A DNA stretch of 64,000 nt from contig JAHBXV010000005.1 in NCBI GenBank assembly GCA_019636285.1, positions 1 through 64,000 on the forward strand, written 5' to 3'. Positions within the stretch are counted from its first letter, which is position 1. Every line of letters starts with the position of its first letter. The DNA is from Planctomycetaceae bacterium. Lineage in GTDB: Bacteria > Planctomycetota > Planctomycetia > Planctomycetales > Planctomycetaceae. The notes below the pieces were generated by a model. That model was given only the letters and a program-made list of their open reading frames with translations. It did not search any database and was not told the DNA's origin. Positions 11,251 to 63,668 of the stretch are shown here, one piece after another. The position numbers and the translations under genes were made by a program.

Positions 11251-14184
11251 ATGTCTTCCATGGATGATCGTGATCAGGCTACCAGCCGTTCCGCCTTCGC
11301 GGGCATGCTGAGTTCGCTGGCGAGACTCTCCGCCCATCGGCCCGGGATCGTCCTGTCGGTGGTCGCCGTGACCGTCATCGCGTCGATCGCCCTCACGGCG
11401 ACGTCGTTACGATTCAAGACCGATCGATCGGATCTCATCGACCCGTCGGCTCCCTTTCAGCAGCGATGGCTGAAGTTTACCGAAGACTTCGGGTATCAGT
11501 CCGACATTGTCGTGCTCGTCGAGTCGTCCGAACCCGAGTCAATCAAGCAGGTGCTCAACGAGTTGGGAGGGGTGCTCGAAAAGCGGGGCGACCTGTTCAC
11601 CAATGTCTTGTACAAGGTGGAGCCCGGCAACCTGCGAAAAAAGGGCCTGCAGTATCTGTCTCCCGACGACCTCGCCGCGGGCCTGGCACGGCTGGACGAG
11701 TACCGCCCGATTCTGACCGGTCGCTGGGATCTGGTCCGGCTGGAAAACCTGGTGCCGCTCCTGGATGCCCAGCTCAAACGGCAGGCGGAGCAGTCTCCGG
11801 GCGAAACCGAACGGTTGCTGCATCACGCCGACCGGCTGGTGGAATCGCTGTGGCGGCTGATCCGCGACAAGAACGATTTTTCCAACCCCTGGCCCGAGAT
11901 CCTGCCCGTCGACCGCAAGCTGACAGCCCAGGCGAACCAGACCGTCTACCTGCTCAACGAGACAGGAACGATGGGGTTCGTGATGGCCACTCCGGTGAAG
12001 ACCGCCGATCAGTCGTTCGAGGGGGCCACGGCGGCGATTCAGGAACTGCGGCGGCTGTCGAGGGAGTTTCAACGGAAACACGCCGACGTGCGGATTTCGC
12101 TGACGGGGATTCCCGTCCTCGAAAATGACGAAATGCGGCGCTCGCAGGAGGACATGACCTACGCGTCGCTGGCTTCGTTCGCGGGGGTGGCCATTCTGCT
12201 GCTGTTTGGATTCCGGGGGCTTCTGCATCCGCTCCTGGGACTGGGCATGCTGGCCGTCGGCATGGCTTGGGCATTCGGGTTCACCACGCTGGCGGTGGGG
12301 CACCTCAACATCCTCTCGGTTTCGTTCGCGGCCATTCTGATTGGCCTCGGCATCGACTTCGGGATTCATATTCTCGCGCGCTACCTTGAACTGCGGCACC
12401 AGGGAATGCCGCTGGGGCAAGCGCTGGTGGCAACCGTCCGCCAGATTGGTCCGGGCGTCTTGACCGGGGCCATCACGACCTCGGCGGCGTTTCTGTGCGC
12501 GGTGATGACCGAGTTTCTGGGCGTGGCGGAACTGGGGATCATCGCCGGCGGGGGAATTCTGCTGTGCGCGCTGGCGGCGTTTATCGTGTTGCCCGCCCTG
12601 ATTGCCGTGGCCGATCGCCATCGCGAACCACGAACGCTGCCGTCGCCATTCCCCTTCAAGACATGGCGAAACCTGTTGCAGCGGCACCCCCTCATGGTCC
12701 TTTGCGTGTCGCTGCTTTGCTTTTCCGTGCTGGGCTGGCAGTTTTTCGACTGGTCGACTCCCGTGCCGACGCCACGCGTTCGCTACGACCACAATCTCTT
12801 GAATTTGCAGGCTCCGGGCCTTGAATCGGTCCAGGCGCAGCGGCGGATTTTTGAAGGCTCGCGGCACAGCGTGCTGTATGCGATTTCGCTGGCCGACAGC
12901 CCCGCCGAGGCGCGCCGCCTCAAGGAACAGTTCGAGAAACTCCCGACAGTCCATCATGTGGAAGAACTAGCCACGCGACTGCCGGACTTTCCGTCGAGCC
13001 AGACGCAACTGATGGTCCAGGCGTTCTCGGCCCAGTTTTCAAAACTGCCCGAGACGCCCCCTGCTCCGGCCTCGGCGAGCCCGGTGATGGTCGGACGGCA
13101 ACTGGAATCGTTCCTGACCTGGCTCAAAACGCGCGACGACGAACTTTCGCTGCGAATCGCGGATCGGCTCGATGAGTTCCTGGGCCAGTTCAGCCAGCTT
13201 CGCCTGGTCGATCAGATGCGATTCCTGGGAGAGTTCGAGTATCGGCTGTCGTACTCGCTGCTGGCCCAGTTCCGGGCGCTCGCGGATGCGTCCGATCCCA
13301 ATCCCGTGACCATCGCGGATCTTCCGACGGCCCTGAGCGATCGCTACATCAGCGATGGGGGTCGCTGGATGCTCCAGGTCTTCCCGAAGAATCAGATCTG
13401 GGACATGGAACCGCTGGAACGCTTCGTCGCCGATGTGCGATCGGTCGACCCGGAAGTCACGGGAACCCCGCTTCAGAACTACGAAGCGGCCCGTCAGATC
13501 AAGACCAGCTACGAGATCTGCGCCGGGTACGCGCTGGCCATCACGCTGCTGCTGTTGCTCGTCGATTTCCTGGGCAGCGACCAGTTGATTCCCGCATTCC
13601 TGCCCGCCGGCATCGTGTTGCTGGCGGGGGCGATCACGATGCTGGTCCTGGAAGCGCCGCTCAGCCCGATCTGGCTGATTCTGGCCTTCACGCTCACGGT
13701 TCTGGCGGCCGCCGCCTGGATTGATCGAGGCACGGTCGCCGAAACGCTGCTGGCCATGCTGCCGCCGGTCTGCGGATTGCTGCTGACCTTCGCCGGGCTG
13801 GTTGTCTTTGACATTCCCCTCAATCCGGCGAATCTCATCATCCTGCCGCTGATTATCGGGATCGGCGTCGACAGCGGCGTTCACATTCTGCACGACTTCC
13901 ACCAGCAGAAGGGCCGCTACATTATCACGCCAAGCATCATGAACTCGATTCTGATGACGTCCTCGACGACGATGGTGGGCTTCGGCAGCATGATGCTGGC
14001 CGCGCACCGAGGTTTGTACAGCCTGGGCGCGGTCCTGACACTGGGCGTCGCGAGTTGCCTGTTTATCTCGCTGTTCACGCTGCCGGCGCTGTTGTCGATG
14101 CTGTCGGAACGACGGATGCCGGAAGCCAATCTGGTTCCTGATCAAGGCACCGCTCCCGCCTCGGACCAGGCGCGGGTTGCCTGA
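11251..14184 (+). CDS. MMPL/RND-family exporter, HpnN-like
   Basis: This 977-residue protein has the two-fold RND layout: TM1, a large periplasmic loop, five further TMs, a second TM, a second loop and the last five TMs. The first half contains [14 protein letters not shown] and the second [17 protein letters not shown], the paired TM4-like proton-relay helices with buried Asp residues. MMPL proteins of this shape export lipids; HpnN moves hopanoids to the outer membrane. No hopanoid genes are seen nearby, so the substrate is unknown. ATG at 11251 is chosen; a second ATG lies three codons later. The end is followed by a strong hairpin shared with the convergent aminotransferase. Confidence 0.88.
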
Positions 14185-57441: not shown

Positions 57442-57834
57442 GAGATTGAAGCGGCCAGCGCTCGCCAGCCCGGCTTCGTCCAGGCCACGGCGTTCCAGCG
57501 GTCGGAATCGGGATAGTCTACCGGAATTTGTCCGCTCCCGCAGGTTCGTCGTCGAAAGCGGCAGATTCGGCCGACAGCGGTTCGCGATGGCCACTTTCTG
57601 ACGACGTTCACGCGCCCCCAGACGTCCCGACCAGCCCGTCCGGCAAGAACCTGATTTCGTGCAAACCATTTTCAGTTAAGTATTTACAAACCGAGCACGC
57701 CTCGCGAGACCAGCTTTCGTCATGCGGCTGGGCCTTCTTGACTCCTTGTCCGGTGACGACCTACGTTTCGTCCTATTGCCGGATTGCCGCCGGTCTCGGG
57801 TTTCGGCGGCGCGATCTTGCGCAAGGAGTTTGGA
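57442..57834. other. Intergenic region between divergent queE and FlgI-like genes
   Basis: No gene is visible in these 393 bases. A weak promoter-like pair TTGACT (57738-57743), 18 bases, TACGTT (57762-57767) could serve the FlgI-like gene, whose start is preceded by the clear ribosome site AAGGAG. Confidence 0.4.
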
Positions 57835-59850
57835 ATGATCCGCTCGACCGCATCCCTGTCCTGGTTGCTGGCGGCCCTGGCGGGCGTCTGCGTCCTGATT
57901 CCCGCGACGGTTTTTGGAGCCGATGATCTCGGCTTTGATGAAGACCTGGCGCGGCCGTTCGAGACGAAAGTTTCGACGCCGCTGATCGGCGAATACGTCA
58001 CTTTCGCCGGCATGAGCCCGGTCGTGCTGCAAGGATATGGACTGGTCGTGGGTCTCAATGGAACCGGGGGCGACCCGGCGCCATCGGCGGCTCGCACGGC
58101 CCTTCTGGAAGAACTGAAGCGTCTGCGGGTTTCCGATCCCAACACACTGTTGCGCTCCCCCAATACGGCGCTCGTGAAAGTGACGACGTTTTTGCCACCC
58201 GTGCACAAGGCGGGCGGCCGACTGGATGTTCTTGTCGAAGCACCACCCAATGCCGGAGTGAAGGATCTCAAGGGTGGCTGGCTGATGGAAACACTGCTCT
58301 ACGAGCAGGCCATCGTTCCCGGCAATCAGCAGATTCAGGGTTTTGCCTACGCGAAGGCGACGGGACCGATCATTGTCGGGAGTCTCAGCGAAAACTCGGG
58401 ACGCGACCCGATGCTCAACCTGCGCGGCCGAGTTCTGGGCGGCGCGGTGGTGACCAAGGAACGCGATCTGTCGGTCCACCTGCGGAACGACTTTCGGAGC
58501 GTGCGAAACTCGGCTCGTATCGCCGAAGTGATCGGGACGCGGTTTCACGGTTACGACCGTCATGGCATCAAGATTCCAATGGCGGAAGCCAAGACCGACC
58601 GGCACATCATTCTGCGAATCGACAATCGTTACCGGGATAATTACCCCCACTATTTGCAGGTGATCCGTCATCTGGCGTTTCGCGAAGACAACGTGGCTCG
58701 CCGCCTGCGGCTGCAGCAGCTTCAAAAAGAGCTGATGGAGCCGCGAACCGCCGAACGGGCATCGCTGCAACTCGAGGCGATCGGTTCCGATGCGATTCCC
58801 GTGCTGAAATCCGGGCTCAAGGCGCCAACGGTCGAGTGCCGGATCTACGCGGCCGTCGCGCTCGCCTACCTGGGCGAATCGGAATGTATCGAGACCCTTG
58901 CCAAAGCGGCCCGGGAAGAGCGGGCGTTCCGGGTCTTTGCCCTCGCCGCCATGTCCGCGATCGACGAAGCCGACACTCATCTACAGCTTCGCGATCTGAT
59001 GAGTGAATCGAGCTCCGAAACGCGCTACGGTGCTTTTCGCGCGCTCTGGACGCTCGATCGAAACGATCCGTTCATTCGCGGAATCACCATGAAGGGGGGC
59101 GGCACGAGCGCGACCAGCGAATACCTGCTGCACGTCCTGCCGACGCAGGGAGACGTACTGGCCCATGTCACGCTCCACTCGCATCCCGAGATCGTGCTGT
59201 TCGGTGAGAATCAGGAATTCCGACCGCCGCTGCTGCTGACGGCTGGCCGCCACATCATGGTCACGGCACAGGCCGGCAGCAAAACCGTTTCGCTGGCCCG
59301 GTTCGAGCCCGGCAAGCCCGACGAACGGCGGGAAGTTTCGTTACGCGTGGCCGATGTCCTGATGGCGGCCGACGAACTGGGCGCGACCTACCCGGACCTG
59401 TTCCAGATGCTGGTGGAAGCCTCGCGGCAACGCAATCTGCCCAATCGACTGGCCATTGATGCCCTGCCCACGGCTGGCCGCGTTTACCACCGTCCCGGCA
59501 CGAAGGCCGCTTCCGGCGCGCAACCGGCCCGGATTGGCAAGGAAATCTTCACTCCCAACCTCTTCCCGATGAAGACCGAGGCGGAAGACGCCAAGACGAA
59601 TTCCGATGACTCCGAATCGTCGAGCCCGATGGCCAGCATTCTTCAGACATCCGCGGAAGTCCCCGCGTCAGACACCACGGACGGCGAAAAGAACGAGTCC
59701 GCGGAAACCGTGTCGAAAGAGGAGTCCGCCCCCTCGCAACTTGGCGACCCGCCCGCTCAGACCACGCCGACTGAAGCGGAGAGTGAAAACACGTCGACGC
59801 CTCGCCGCTGGTGGCATGTCTTTGGCGGCTGGCGGAAGTCGAAGGACTAG
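57835..59850 (+). CDS. FlgI-like (flagellar P-ring type) secreted protein with repeat region
   Basis: The protein is 671 residues from the ATG at 57835, which has AAGGAG seven bases upstream and starts a signal peptide. The N-terminal part after the signal matches Flg[50 protein letters not shown] and RVLGGAVV. The C-terminal half differs from ordinary FlgI: a HEAT-like helical repeat stretch ([38 protein letters not shown]), a beta-rich part, then a Ser/Glu/Thr-rich disordered tail ending in Trp and basic residues. Flagellar FlgI is ~360 residues and forms the P-ring. No other flagellar gene is near, so a different envelope role is possible. Confidence 0.85.
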
Positions 59851-59942
59851 GAGTAGTCGCGTCGCTCTCGCAAGATTTGGTCAGTCGATCCCGGTGTTCC
59901 GGCTTCGCCGCGCGGTGCCCACTTTCGTGATCTTTGTGCCCC

Positions 59943-62900
59943 ATGCTCAAGTCGCTGGAGCTGTTTGGCTTCAAGAGCTTTGCCGACCGCACTCGATTCG
60001 ACTTCGCCGCGGGCGTGACCTGCGTCGTCGGACCGAACGGCAGCGGTAAGAGCAATGTCGTCGACGCGCTGAAGTGGATTCTGGGAGATCAATCCGCCAA
60101 GAGCCTGCGCGGCAAGGAGATGACCGACGTCATCTTCAACGGCTCGAAAAGCCGCAAGGCCAACGGCTTCGCGGAAGCCACTCTCACCTTCGACAACTCG
60201 GCCGGTCTGCTCCCCGTCGAAGCGGCCGAAGTGCAAATCGGTCGGCGCCTGTGGCGAAACGGCGACTCCGAGTATCTGCTCAATCGGTCCGCAGTCCGTC
60301 TCAAGGACATTCGCGACCTGTTTCTGGGAACGGGGGCCGGTTCGGCGGCTTACAGCATCATCGAACAGGGGCGCGTCGACCAGATTCTGCAAGCGAATCC
60401 GGTCAGCCGGCGCGCTGTCTTTGAAGAAGCCGCGGGGATCAGCCGCTTTAAGGCTCGGCGCATGGACGCGCAGCGAAAGCTGGAGCGCGTCGACCAGAAC
60501 CTCATCCGTCTGACGGACATTGTCGACGAAGTGGAAGCCCGTCTGAACGCCACGCGAAGTCAGGCCGCCAAAGCCGCCAAGTTTCGCGAGATCAGCGAGG
60601 AACTCAAAAGCTGGTGGCAGGGACTCGCCGCCGACGATTGCCGCGAATTCGATCGCGAGCTGCATGGCCTTGCCGAGCGGTTGGAGGAACTCCAGCGCCG
60701 CGATGCGGAATTGCTAACGGAACAGCGGGAGCATGATGCGCGCGCCGCGGCGATCGACGTGGATATGGCGGCGCTTGATGACCTGATTCGCGACGTCCAG
60801 AAGAGAAACACGACCAGCCGCGAGGCAATGGCCGGCGCGACGGCGACGATCGAATCGCAACGGCAGCGGCTCCATGAGACCGACACGGAAGTCGTGCGGC
60901 TGCAACGGCAACAGTTGATACTGCAACAGCGCATGGCGGATGGAGCACGGGCAATCGAACGGGAACGAGCAGCCTTGGCCGAGCTGGAGGTCGCCGCGCG
61001 AAGCCGCCTGACCGCGCTCGAAGGACGGGCCGAGGAGCTCACCCAGCTCACTCAGCGGGTGAATGAACTTCAGTCGCGGCTCGAAGGGGAACGGACCCGT
61101 CGTCTGCAATTGACTCGCGAAATCGCCGGCCTCGATCAAAGCCTCGTCTCCTGGCAGGATCGAGAATCGCTCCTCGGGCAGACCCTGGACGACCTGGACG
61201 GCCGACTGGAACCGATGCGGGAACAGCGCCGCGAAGTGGAAGAGGAAGTCCACTCGCGCCAGCTCGTGGTCCAACAGGCGACGCGAACGCTGGCGACCGC
61301 GCAGCAGGTGCTCAAGACGATTCAGGCCAAACGCGAAGAACTGCTCGTCTCGCAACGCGCGACTCAGGCCGCGCTGGCCGATGCCCGCGAGCGCCGCAGC
61401 GCGACGGTCGCGCGCCGGCTCTTGCTGGAAGACCTCGAATCCCGGCAGGAAGGGATCGGCCTCGGCGCGCGGGAAATTCTGGCCCGTGCCCGGCAATCGC
61501 GCGAGAAGCCTTGGTGCACGGTGCTGGGGCTCGCGGCCGACCTGCTGGATGTCGATCTCGAAAATGCCGCCCTGCTCGAGGTCGCGCTCGGCTCGCGTGG
61601 ACAACTGCTGGTTGTGAACGACTTCGCGGCCTGGCAGGACTATCTGTTCAAGAATCCCAACTCTCTCAGCGGACGAATCGGGTTTCTGTGCTTGTCCGGC
61701 GACACCGCCGAGATCGCTTCGCCAGACCAGGGGTTTGCTTCGTTGAAGCTACCCTTCCGCCACGGACCGGATCTGATCGCACAGCCAGGTGTCCTCCAGC
61801 GAGCCGATGGTTTGGCGCTGGACAATCAACAAGCCGGGCAACTCGCGGAAACGCTGCTGGGAGATACCTGGGTCGTCGAAACGCTCGACGTGGCCATTTC
61901 GCTGGCCGCGGGCTCCGGACGCGGTTGCCGGTTCGTCACCTTGCAGGGCGAAGTCCTGGAAGCCGATGGCAGCGTGACCGTCGGTCCCGTCCGGACCGAG
62001 GCGGCCGTGCTGTCCCGTAAAAGCGAACTCAAGCGGCTCAAGCAGCAGATTCATGCGATCGATCACGAAATCGAATCGCGTGAATCATCGCTGGCTGTCC
62101 TTTACGAAGGGCTTCGCAACCTGGAGGTCGACCTGGAGCAGGCGGCCAGTGCCGTCGATGAAACGCAGGATCTGCTCACGGAAGCTCGGGCGGCGCTCAA
62201 CAGCCAGGACCGCATTCGCGAGCAGGTGGAAAACGCGCTCGCCGATCTGACCCAGCGTCAGCAGAGTCTCACAGTGGATCTCACTGCGGCGCGGCAGGAG
62301 ATCGAACGCTGCGAACAGGGTGGTATCGCCGCGCGCGAGAAACTGACAGCTTCCGAAGAGTTGTCGCAACAGTTCACCGAAGAGTTGGCCGTTCTCAACG
62401 GGCGGTGTGCCGAGATGGAAGAGGAACGCAATCTTCACCAGGTTGACCTGGCCAAGCATGCGGAACGGACGGCCGCACTGCGAACGCAACTTGAGCGATT
62501 GGGCGAGGATCTTGAACAGCGACAACTGCAAGCAGCCGAGGGAGCGCGACGAGTCGACACCGTCCGTCAGAAACGCGATCAGATCACGCTGCAAATCCTG
62601 AACGCCCGCGCGGAATTGGACGAGCGACGGCATCACGCCGAGCAGATTGACCTGGAAGTCGTCGAACTGAACGCGCGAAAGGCCGAGGTCCGCGAGCGAC
62701 GCGGCGTGCTGTCGCGCGCGTTGTCCGAACTGCAAGCCAATCGCCGCGGCGTCAGCACGACCATCCACGAACTGGAACTGCGGCGACGCGAAGTGCTGCA
62801 AAACGTGGCCGGCCTGCGCGAGCGTCTGGAGGAAGAGTATCAGGTTGACTTGCACGAAACGGTGGCGACCGGAATTTCGGCCTATCGCATGTACCTGGAT

Positions 62901-63668
62901 GAGATACATGCCGGTTCCGACACCGAAGACGCGGAACAGGAAGCGGCGCCGCGGCTTCCGGAGAATCCGCCCTCATTCTCGGAAGCGCGAAGCGAACTCG
63001 ATGGGCGGGTTCAGCGTCTTAAGAAGAAGCTGAAACTCCTGGGAAGCGTGAATCCAGATAGTCTGGCGGAACTGGATGCTTTGGAAACTCGGTTCTCGCA
63101 GCTCAGTTCGCAGCTCAGCGACCTGGTCGAAGCCAAATCGACGCTGGAGGACATTATCCGCCGGATCAACGGGGAAAGCCGGCGGATGTTCCTCGAGACC
63201 TATGAAACCGTTCGCGCGAACTTCCAGGAGTTGTTTCGGACGGTCTTCGGCGGGGGCGAAGGTGACATCATTCTGGAAGACATGAATGACGTCCTAGAAT
63301 GCGGAATCGAAATCCAGGCCCGGCCGCCGGGCAAGGAGCTGCGGAGTCTTTCGCTGTTGTCGGGCGGCGAGAAGACGATGACGGCAATCGCGCTCATCAT
63401 GGCGATCTTCCAGGCGAAGCCGAGCCCCTTCTGCATTCTGGACGAAGTGGACGCCGCGCTGGACGAGGCAAACGTCGAACGTTTCACGAACGTGATTCGC
63501 AAGTTTCAAAATTCGACCCAGTTTATCATGATCACGCATCATAAACGCTCAATGACCGTTGGCGACGTCTTGTATGGCGTTACAATGGAAGAGTCGGGCG
63601 TCTCGAAGCGAATGGCGGTCCGCTTCGAGGATGTCGGCGAAGATGGCCGGTTCAAGTCGGCCGCATAA
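59943..63668 (+). CDS. smc: Chromosome segregation SMC ATPase
   Basis: The protein is 1241 residues from ATG at 59943 ([20 protein letters not shown]). Walker [10 protein letters not shown] is at residues ~32-40, then the Q-loop region. A first coiled coil (~170-510), the hinge (~520-690, including [20 protein letters not shown]) and a returning coiled coil precede the C-terminal head with signature [11 protein letters not shown] and Walker [16 protein letters not shown], followed by the His-loop ITHHKRSM. It forms the condensin ring with ScpA/ScpB, which are not in this window. Confidence 0.97.

Follow-up and report, generated by a model that had tools for sequence, protein, structure and literature searches.

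What does a relative of FlgI, the P-ring protein of the flagellar basal body, do when its gene stands beside smc and away from flagellar genes? The 64,000-nucleotide stretch of planctomycete DNA analysed here (the window) contains such a gene. The original prediction described its product as a FlgI-like protein nearly twice normal length, located outside any flagellar locus and perhaps forming an envelope ring unrelated to flagella. The length and the predicted coordinates, 57835–59850, hold: the gene, which we call FlgI-HEAT, starts at an ATG at 57835, ends with a stop codon at 59848–59850 and encodes a protein ~1.7–1.8 times as long as canonical FlgI. The gene and its immediate surroundings are as follows.

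57823..57828, + strand: Shine–Dalgarno-like AAGGAG, 6 bases 5′ of the ATG (sequence)
57835..59850, + strand: FlgI-HEAT gene, 671 amino acids plus stop (translation, Pfam FlgI and HEAT_2, homologues)
59934..63668, + strand: smc, the next gene 3′ of FlgI-HEAT (SMC_N at E 4.3e-69, and SMC_hinge)

The reading frame is not a chance one, because a homologue is encoded in 57 of 59 relatives and its GC content by codon position is 0.66/0.47/0.74. All 52 good-quality genomes among these relatives encode it, and the two relatives without it are genomes of 78–79% completeness. The FlgI-HEAT stop codon and the likely smc ATG at 59943 are separated by 92 bp. Of the two neighbours that had been predicted, smc is confirmed; the supposed queE is a divergent radical-SAM gene whose Pfam matches here are limited to Radical_SAM and Fer4_12. 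A promoter and terminator scan of 57500–60100 returned no promoter-like site and three terminator-like sites (2.7 expected from shuffled sequence), which has no bearing on whether FlgI-HEAT and smc are co-transcribed.

We examined the architecture of the protein by profile searches and structure prediction. The prediction had envisaged a P-ring-like sequence joined to a HEAT-like stretch and a long acidic tail; all three parts are present, but the HEAT block lies within the FlgI region and is not joined to its end. The protein divides into the following parts.

57835..57921, + strand: N-terminal export signal, residues 1–29, end approximate (sequence; lipobox-like Cys in most relatives, not in the window copy)
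57979..58683, + strand: FlgI upper-inner-ring and outer-ring domains, residues 49–283 (VIA-align, hhalign)
58684..59070, + strand: HEAT-repeat insert, residues 284–412 (model, VIA-align, HEAT_2)
59119..59469, + strand: apparent C-terminal FlgI (lower-inner-ring-like) domain, residues ~429–545, limits approximate (VIA-align, hhalign)
59536..59565, + strand: conserved motif around R[VI]Gx5PN[LI]F, residues 568–577 (alignment)
59575..59847, + strand: disordered acidic tail, residues 581–671 (pLDDT below 50 at 585–668; charge)

Pfam matched FlgI (PF02119) to residues 53–289 at E 6e-26, above the family cut-off (91.6 bits against 25.3) and over profile positions 4–232 of 343, and HEAT_2 to residues 321–404 of the window copy at E 1.9e-5, just under its cut-off (25.3 bits against 27.7). 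All 12 distant members scanned carry the FlgI match and 11 of them exceed the HEAT_2 cut-off; it is through these distant members that the family qualifies as containing HEAT repeats. The NCBIfam model for the flagellar basal body P-ring protein FlgI, PRK05303, scored 82.8 bits, below its curated cut-off of 300. Searching PDB sequences placed flagellar P-ring proteins at the top (E 5.6e-11) and matched residues ~310–410 to alphaRep and HEAT proteins.

An AlphaFold2 model built with 30 sequences had a mean pLDDT of 81.8, with 452 residues at 90 or above and values below 50 at residues 1–33, 186–188 and 585–668. All four Foldseek matches to this model at E ≤ 0.001 were FlgI; the best, 7bgl (E 9.4e-13), extended over 503 alignment columns for a target of 306 residues and spanned the insert, the pattern that would result from an insertion with FlgI sequence on either side. 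VIA-align superposed model residues 49–283 on FlgI residues 20–245 (Z 15.6–16.0), and hhalign matched this upper-inner-ring and outer-ring part at E 2.1e-28; a full-profile hhalign comparison with the canonical FlgI alignment covered the N-terminal half only. The insert resembles HEAT-type alphaRep proteins (VIA-align Z up to 9.7). Computation supports both the FlgI fold and the HEAT insertion, and the model supports reading the HEAT block as an insert between the outer-ring and lower-inner-ring domains, not as a terminal addition. The insertion point falls between FlgI residues 244–245 and 247–248 in PDB numbering, which we take to be linked to mature numbering by a 19-residue signal peptide. 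In the available portion of the report on the Salmonella FlgI structure, the outer-ring domain comprises mature residues 1–11 and 160–230 and the lower-inner-ring domain residues 231–346 (PMC8298488), and the insertion point coincides with the border between the two.

The last FlgI domain also appears to be present. Modelled alone, residues 408–584 reached a pLDDT of 83.8, and VIA-align returned FlgI residues 247–365 at ranks 1, 2 and 5 (Z 5.8, 5.8 and 5.0); these matches are collinear, cover 76–85 residues at 17–21% identity and have Z scores, 5.8 included, within the range of chance. Alignment with 24 canonical planctomycete FlgI sequences by hhalign was collinear at columns 271–360 (E 0.0013, probability 18%). 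For this piece alone, Foldseek found nothing at E ≤ 0.001, and FlgI was absent from the 50 matches listed. Each comparison is weak or mixed by itself; we judge the domain to be present because VIA-align, hhalign and the whole-length Foldseek alignment agree with one another.

Pro574 of the C-terminal motif is invariant in 30 aligned FlgI-HEAT sequences. The tail carries a net charge of −14 over residues 582–657 and in the window copy, as in many members of the window's family, ends in an aromatic and basic stretch that could touch a membrane. In the same 30 sequences the HEAT region is conserved to a similar degree (mean major-residue fraction 0.64, against 0.60–0.65 in the FlgI parts), with 15 invariant positions among 129 columns, and the invariant charged residues E314, R366, E395 and R402 could fit a putative binding surface. 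Separately, the rod-facing lysines of FlgI were tried as an indicator that rod binding has been lost and proved not decisive: the K63 equivalent is lysine in 2 of 24 canonical FlgI and 2 of 30 HEAT-type sequences (proline in 23 of the 30), and the K95 equivalent is lysine or arginine in 14 of 24 and 8 of 30, respectively.

Export of FlgI-HEAT to the cell envelope is well supported, as judged from its N-terminal signals and predicted fold. Of 92 FlgI-HEAT loci, 66 show a lipobox-like pattern, compared with 2 of 24 canonical FlgI; this is a crude pattern count that includes a few doubtful matches (L040, L105) and is drawn from N-terminal stretches longer than those of canonical FlgI. In the alignment, 19 of 21 distant members share a cysteine at a single column; the window copy lacks it and has a plain signal (...VFGADD) with no lipobox. 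From the pattern and the aligned cysteine together, the ancestral form was therefore probably a lipoprotein with no need of a FlgH anchor. The lipid anchor that holds the flagellum's rings in the outer membrane comes from FlgH; by analogy, FlgI-HEAT may unite ring and anchor in one chain.

The same features would suit a simpler arrangement, in which FlgI-HEAT is an exported tether or scaffold between outer membrane and peptidoglycan that uses its FlgI domains as binding modules and forms no closed ring. The lipobox-like pattern agrees with this reading, the disordered acidic tail and HEAT arm would be suitable for it, and the FlgI outer-ring domain resembles domains related to peptidoglycan-binding folds, according to the part of the structural report available (PMC8298488). 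However, all three ring domains are apparently retained, including the lower-inner-ring domain through which subunits contact each other, and we regard an unringed tether as possible but not probable.

We then determined how widely FlgI-HEAT occurs. A profile of diverse members (A4) was run against 294 genomes of the phylum with at least 90% completeness, scoring up to four candidates per genome. The prediction had proposed a survey of relatives for the same fusion, and at this scale it is found in 105 of 294 genomes, all at E ≤ 1.6e-101; nothing falls between 1.6e-101 and 1.3e-31, the latter being the best match in the other 189 genomes, a 433-residue frame aligned in its FlgI part only. Carriers comprise 52 of 52 genomes of the window's class and 53 of 53 from eight further families (f11, f42, f46, f54, f58, f61, f63 and f66), against 0 of 189 elsewhere; every sampled genome of 16 families encodes the protein. 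The eight further families are probably Phycisphaerae. Four carriers (G059, G082, G126 and G170), each of which has a diverged copy 5′ of smc, had returned no long match to an earlier profile, A1; A4, which includes two of these four copies, finds all of them, and a copy that has diverged as far could have escaped detection among the 189 apparent non-carriers.

Phylogenetic analysis of the FlgI part separated 32 HEAT-type rows from 24 canonical FlgI sequences with branch support of 100/99, and within the HEAT-type group divided members of the window's class (97/88) from those of the other families (94/90). Computation supports one origin, and a single origin followed by mainly vertical descent is the simplest reading of this tree. 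The canonical FlgI sequences of Planctomycetota themselves form several well-separated groups in the tree, such as L146/L193/L204 and L001/L149.

FlgI-HEAT could instead belong to the pits of Planctomycetes, crateriform complexes that connect the outer membrane with the inner one. In the accessible text of one study, pits are outer-membrane complexes, at least some of them joined to the cell membrane, at ~104 per P. limnophila cell (PMC5394234). A class-wide envelope collar would suit such complexes. In the portion available of a second study, one Phycisphaerae species is described as showing no pits, and a second species is entered as 'no' in a comparison table (PMC7783415), yet the eight families that we take for Phycisphaerae all carry FlgI-HEAT. 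This distribution argues against an exclusive role in pits, and we consider membership of these complexes very unlikely.

The prediction that the protein is unrelated to flagella could be assessed directly from gene content. The window's own genome assembly (99.8% complete, 113 contigs) encodes a full-length canonical FlgI (E 1.8e-65) on a different contig from FlgI-HEAT (C1), adjoining flgH, a FlgA-type chaperone and a rod-binding protein, with FliG and FlhA encoded elsewhere. FlgI-HEAT is a second FlgI-type gene of this genome, because the genome has a separate flgA–flgH–flgI cluster, FliG and FlhA; a full flagellar gene set lacking any further flgI would have spoken for a flagellar role, and the genome does not present this case.

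INDEPENDENCE from the flagellum is supported by eight carriers with no detectable FliG, FlhA, FlgH or canonical FlgI (G148, G226, G236, G245, G260, G270, G292 and G322), three of them single-contig genomes. A flagellar P-ring protein should be encoded with flagellar genes and depend on them; FlgI-HEAT lies outside their cluster and persists in these eight genomes. FlgH was found in 6 of 22 carriers checked, the remaining 16 keeping the HEAT-type protein without it, and these six are the same six that have canonical FlgI among 21 checked. The carrier outside the 21, G188, has neither FliG among the search positives nor FlgH and is not counted among the eight, each of which was also searched for FlhA and canonical FlgI. 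Seven carriers (G003, G026, G037, G042, G054, G218 and G257) have FlhA without FlgH or canonical FlgI; such genomes would have either a motor without an LP ring or a non-flagellar export system.

A search for the FliG family gave 196 positive genomes, comprising 91 of 105 carriers and 105 of 189 non-carriers. Most carriers are thus flagellate as judged by this gene, and the flagellum and FlgI-HEAT therefore vary independently. An extra or specialised flagellar P-ring protein could be argued from the FlgI fold, the prevalence of FliG among carriers and the seven FlhA-encoding carriers without canonical FlgI, but those seven also lack FlgH, the protein is kept in the eight genomes without detectable flagellar markers, which speaks against this as its general role, and its gene is linked to smc and not to flagellar genes. 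Moreover, the flagella of non-carriers do without FlgI-HEAT, because FliG occurs in more than half of those genomes. We regard a flagellar role as highly improbable, and the prediction of a function unrelated to flagella is well supported by both the separate canonical flgI and the eight marker-less carriers.

Which gene, then, accompanies FlgI-HEAT? Neighbourhoods were counted in 92 of 101 loci (the window, 20 distant loci and the best 80 of 343 relatives), excluding nine loci shorter than 9 kb. In 85 of the 92, spanning two deep branches, smc lies directly 3′ of FlgI-HEAT on the same strand, and the arrangement holds in 16 of the 20 loci from other families. The gap from FlgI-HEAT to the first possible smc start ranges from −40 to 256 bp (median 75) over all 85 loci, and from −1 to 256 bp (median 94) in the 67 loci in which a motif fixed the position of the SMC start. 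Seven loci have no smc beside FlgI-HEAT: L072 and L103 end just past the gene, and none was seen beside L059. The pair is old and kept by selection or shared transcription, because FlgI-HEAT stands 5′ of smc so consistently, the other families included.

No other neighbour recurs as often. Judged by position and strand, most high-count clusters are shadow reading frames inside the two genes. The next most frequent real neighbour encodes HTH_17 and receiver domains and lies 3′ of smc (22 of 76 loci with room for it); no further real gene recurs in more than 20 loci. The window's own genome has it after smc (L211:7341–7913). In G037 and G042 it is the next such gene after FlgI-HEAT, with no smc between them; the Pfam assignment was made on the L184 copy (11720–12289).

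Ten carriers were profiled for smc, which was adjacent in six and elsewhere in two (G045 and G253); two had no TIGR02168 match. The six adjacent copies of FlgI-HEAT match profile A4 at 7e-69 or better. In the 1.5 kb 5′ of smc in six non-carriers (G186, G122, G199, G098, G156 and G065), A4 found no match at E ≤ 10. At E ≤ 1e-20, no TIGR02168 SMC was found in G037 or G042 (window's class, 98–99% complete; loci L184 and L185), which keep FlgI-HEAT. The FlgI-HEAT protein seems independent of SMC.

A joint role of FlgI-HEAT and SMC in FtsZ-free division, in forming the bud site or in coupling to chromosome segregation would explain why the genes are neighbours across two deep branches and would accord with the presence of FlgI-HEAT throughout lineages without FtsZ. 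However, SMC is a cytosolic protein, the two genomes without a TIGR02168 match keep the protein, and the non-carrier part of the phylum also lacks FtsZ, leaving that pattern non-discriminating. We consider such a joint role unlikely. FtsZ itself was ruled out as a discriminating partner, exceeding the cut-off in 0 of 294 phylum genomes. Four weak FtsZ-like matches lie under the cut-off (E 1e-12 to 1e-15; frames of 377–460 residues), three in family f61 (G165, G184 and G205) and one in G087.

Our preferred interpretation, which we hold to be probable, is that FlgI-HEAT is a non-flagellar, membrane-anchored collar or scaffold of the P-ring type whose HEAT arm binds a partner. The protein would be a non-flagellar FlgI paralogue, ancestral in one large branch of Planctomycetota and present in all its sampled genomes, the branch comprising the window's class and the eight families that are probably Phycisphaerae. 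It is predicted to be exported, and most members are probably anchored by an N-terminal lipid, likely in the outer membrane; since it can bear a lipid anchor itself, FlgI-HEAT would not depend on FlgH (L-ring) to keep it in place. A collar of the P-ring type, located at the peptidoglycan, is the probable product of the three FlgI domains. As all three are retained, the subunits may assemble side by side into such a collar, a proposition that we find evenly balanced, and a ring in the envelope, as originally predicted, is plausible given the three domains and N-terminal signals that fit the envelope. At the hinge between outer-ring and lower-inner-ring domains, the HEAT arm probably projects into the periplasm, where it would dock a partner; additional contacts may be tethered by the flexible tail. 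FlgI-HEAT and smc are probably expressed together, from one operon. An extended version of this model, in which a P-ring-derived, self-anchored outer-membrane ring arose a single time, earlier than the split between the two planctomycete branches, became core to envelope shaping or division without FtsZ, and is produced together with SMC to coordinate its assembly with chromosome segregation, is speculative and, taken whole, quite unlikely.

No description of FlgI-HEAT was found in the open-licence literature searched, a scope that mostly omits subscription journals. The portions available of PMC1586193, PMC12758564 and PMC12316311 do not describe it; the main text, as available, of the proteome papers PMC8567305 and PMC5287468 lacks 'flagell*' and 'P-ring', and that of the P. 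limnophila essential-gene paper PMC10632474 lacks 'SMC', 'FlgI' and 'flagell*'. The accessible part of PMC12283558 mentions neither SMC, FlgI nor P-ring. One large branch of Planctomycetota keeps FlgI-HEAT even where flagellum genes were not found, and the protein therefore probably serves another envelope structure. On this view, a major branch of bacteria seems to have recruited the bushing protein of the flagellum, or an ancestor of that protein, to a core function in its envelope, in a single early event. For experiments in a genetically tractable species the gene is a concrete target: it is conserved, its fold can be recognised, it probably includes a docking module, and smc is its regular neighbour.

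Among known systems, FlgI-HEAT is closest to canonical FlgI (PF02119; PDB 7bgl, 7cbl, 7nvg and 8z5n), with which it shares an N-terminal export signal and the order of its domains: upper inner ring, outer ring and, less securely, lower inner ring. The P-ring of Salmonella is a 26-fold ring around the rod. Unlike canonical FlgI, FlgI-HEAT has a HEAT insert of ~130 residues at the outer-ring/lower-inner-ring junction, an acidic tail and, in most members, a lipobox-like signal; its gene adjoins smc instead of flgH and flgA, is kept in genomes without detectable flagellar genes and forms a separate group in the tree. FlgH, the L-ring lipoprotein, offers a functional analogy only, in the outer-membrane lipid anchor that most FlgI-HEAT members may supply for themselves; FlgI-HEAT gave no FlgH match in a Pfam scan up to E 1. 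With HEAT proteins (PF13646 HEAT_2; alphaRep scaffolds) the insert shares its helical repeat fold, but in contrast to usual HEAT repeats, those of FlgI-HEAT are embedded in the P-ring fold of an exported protein.
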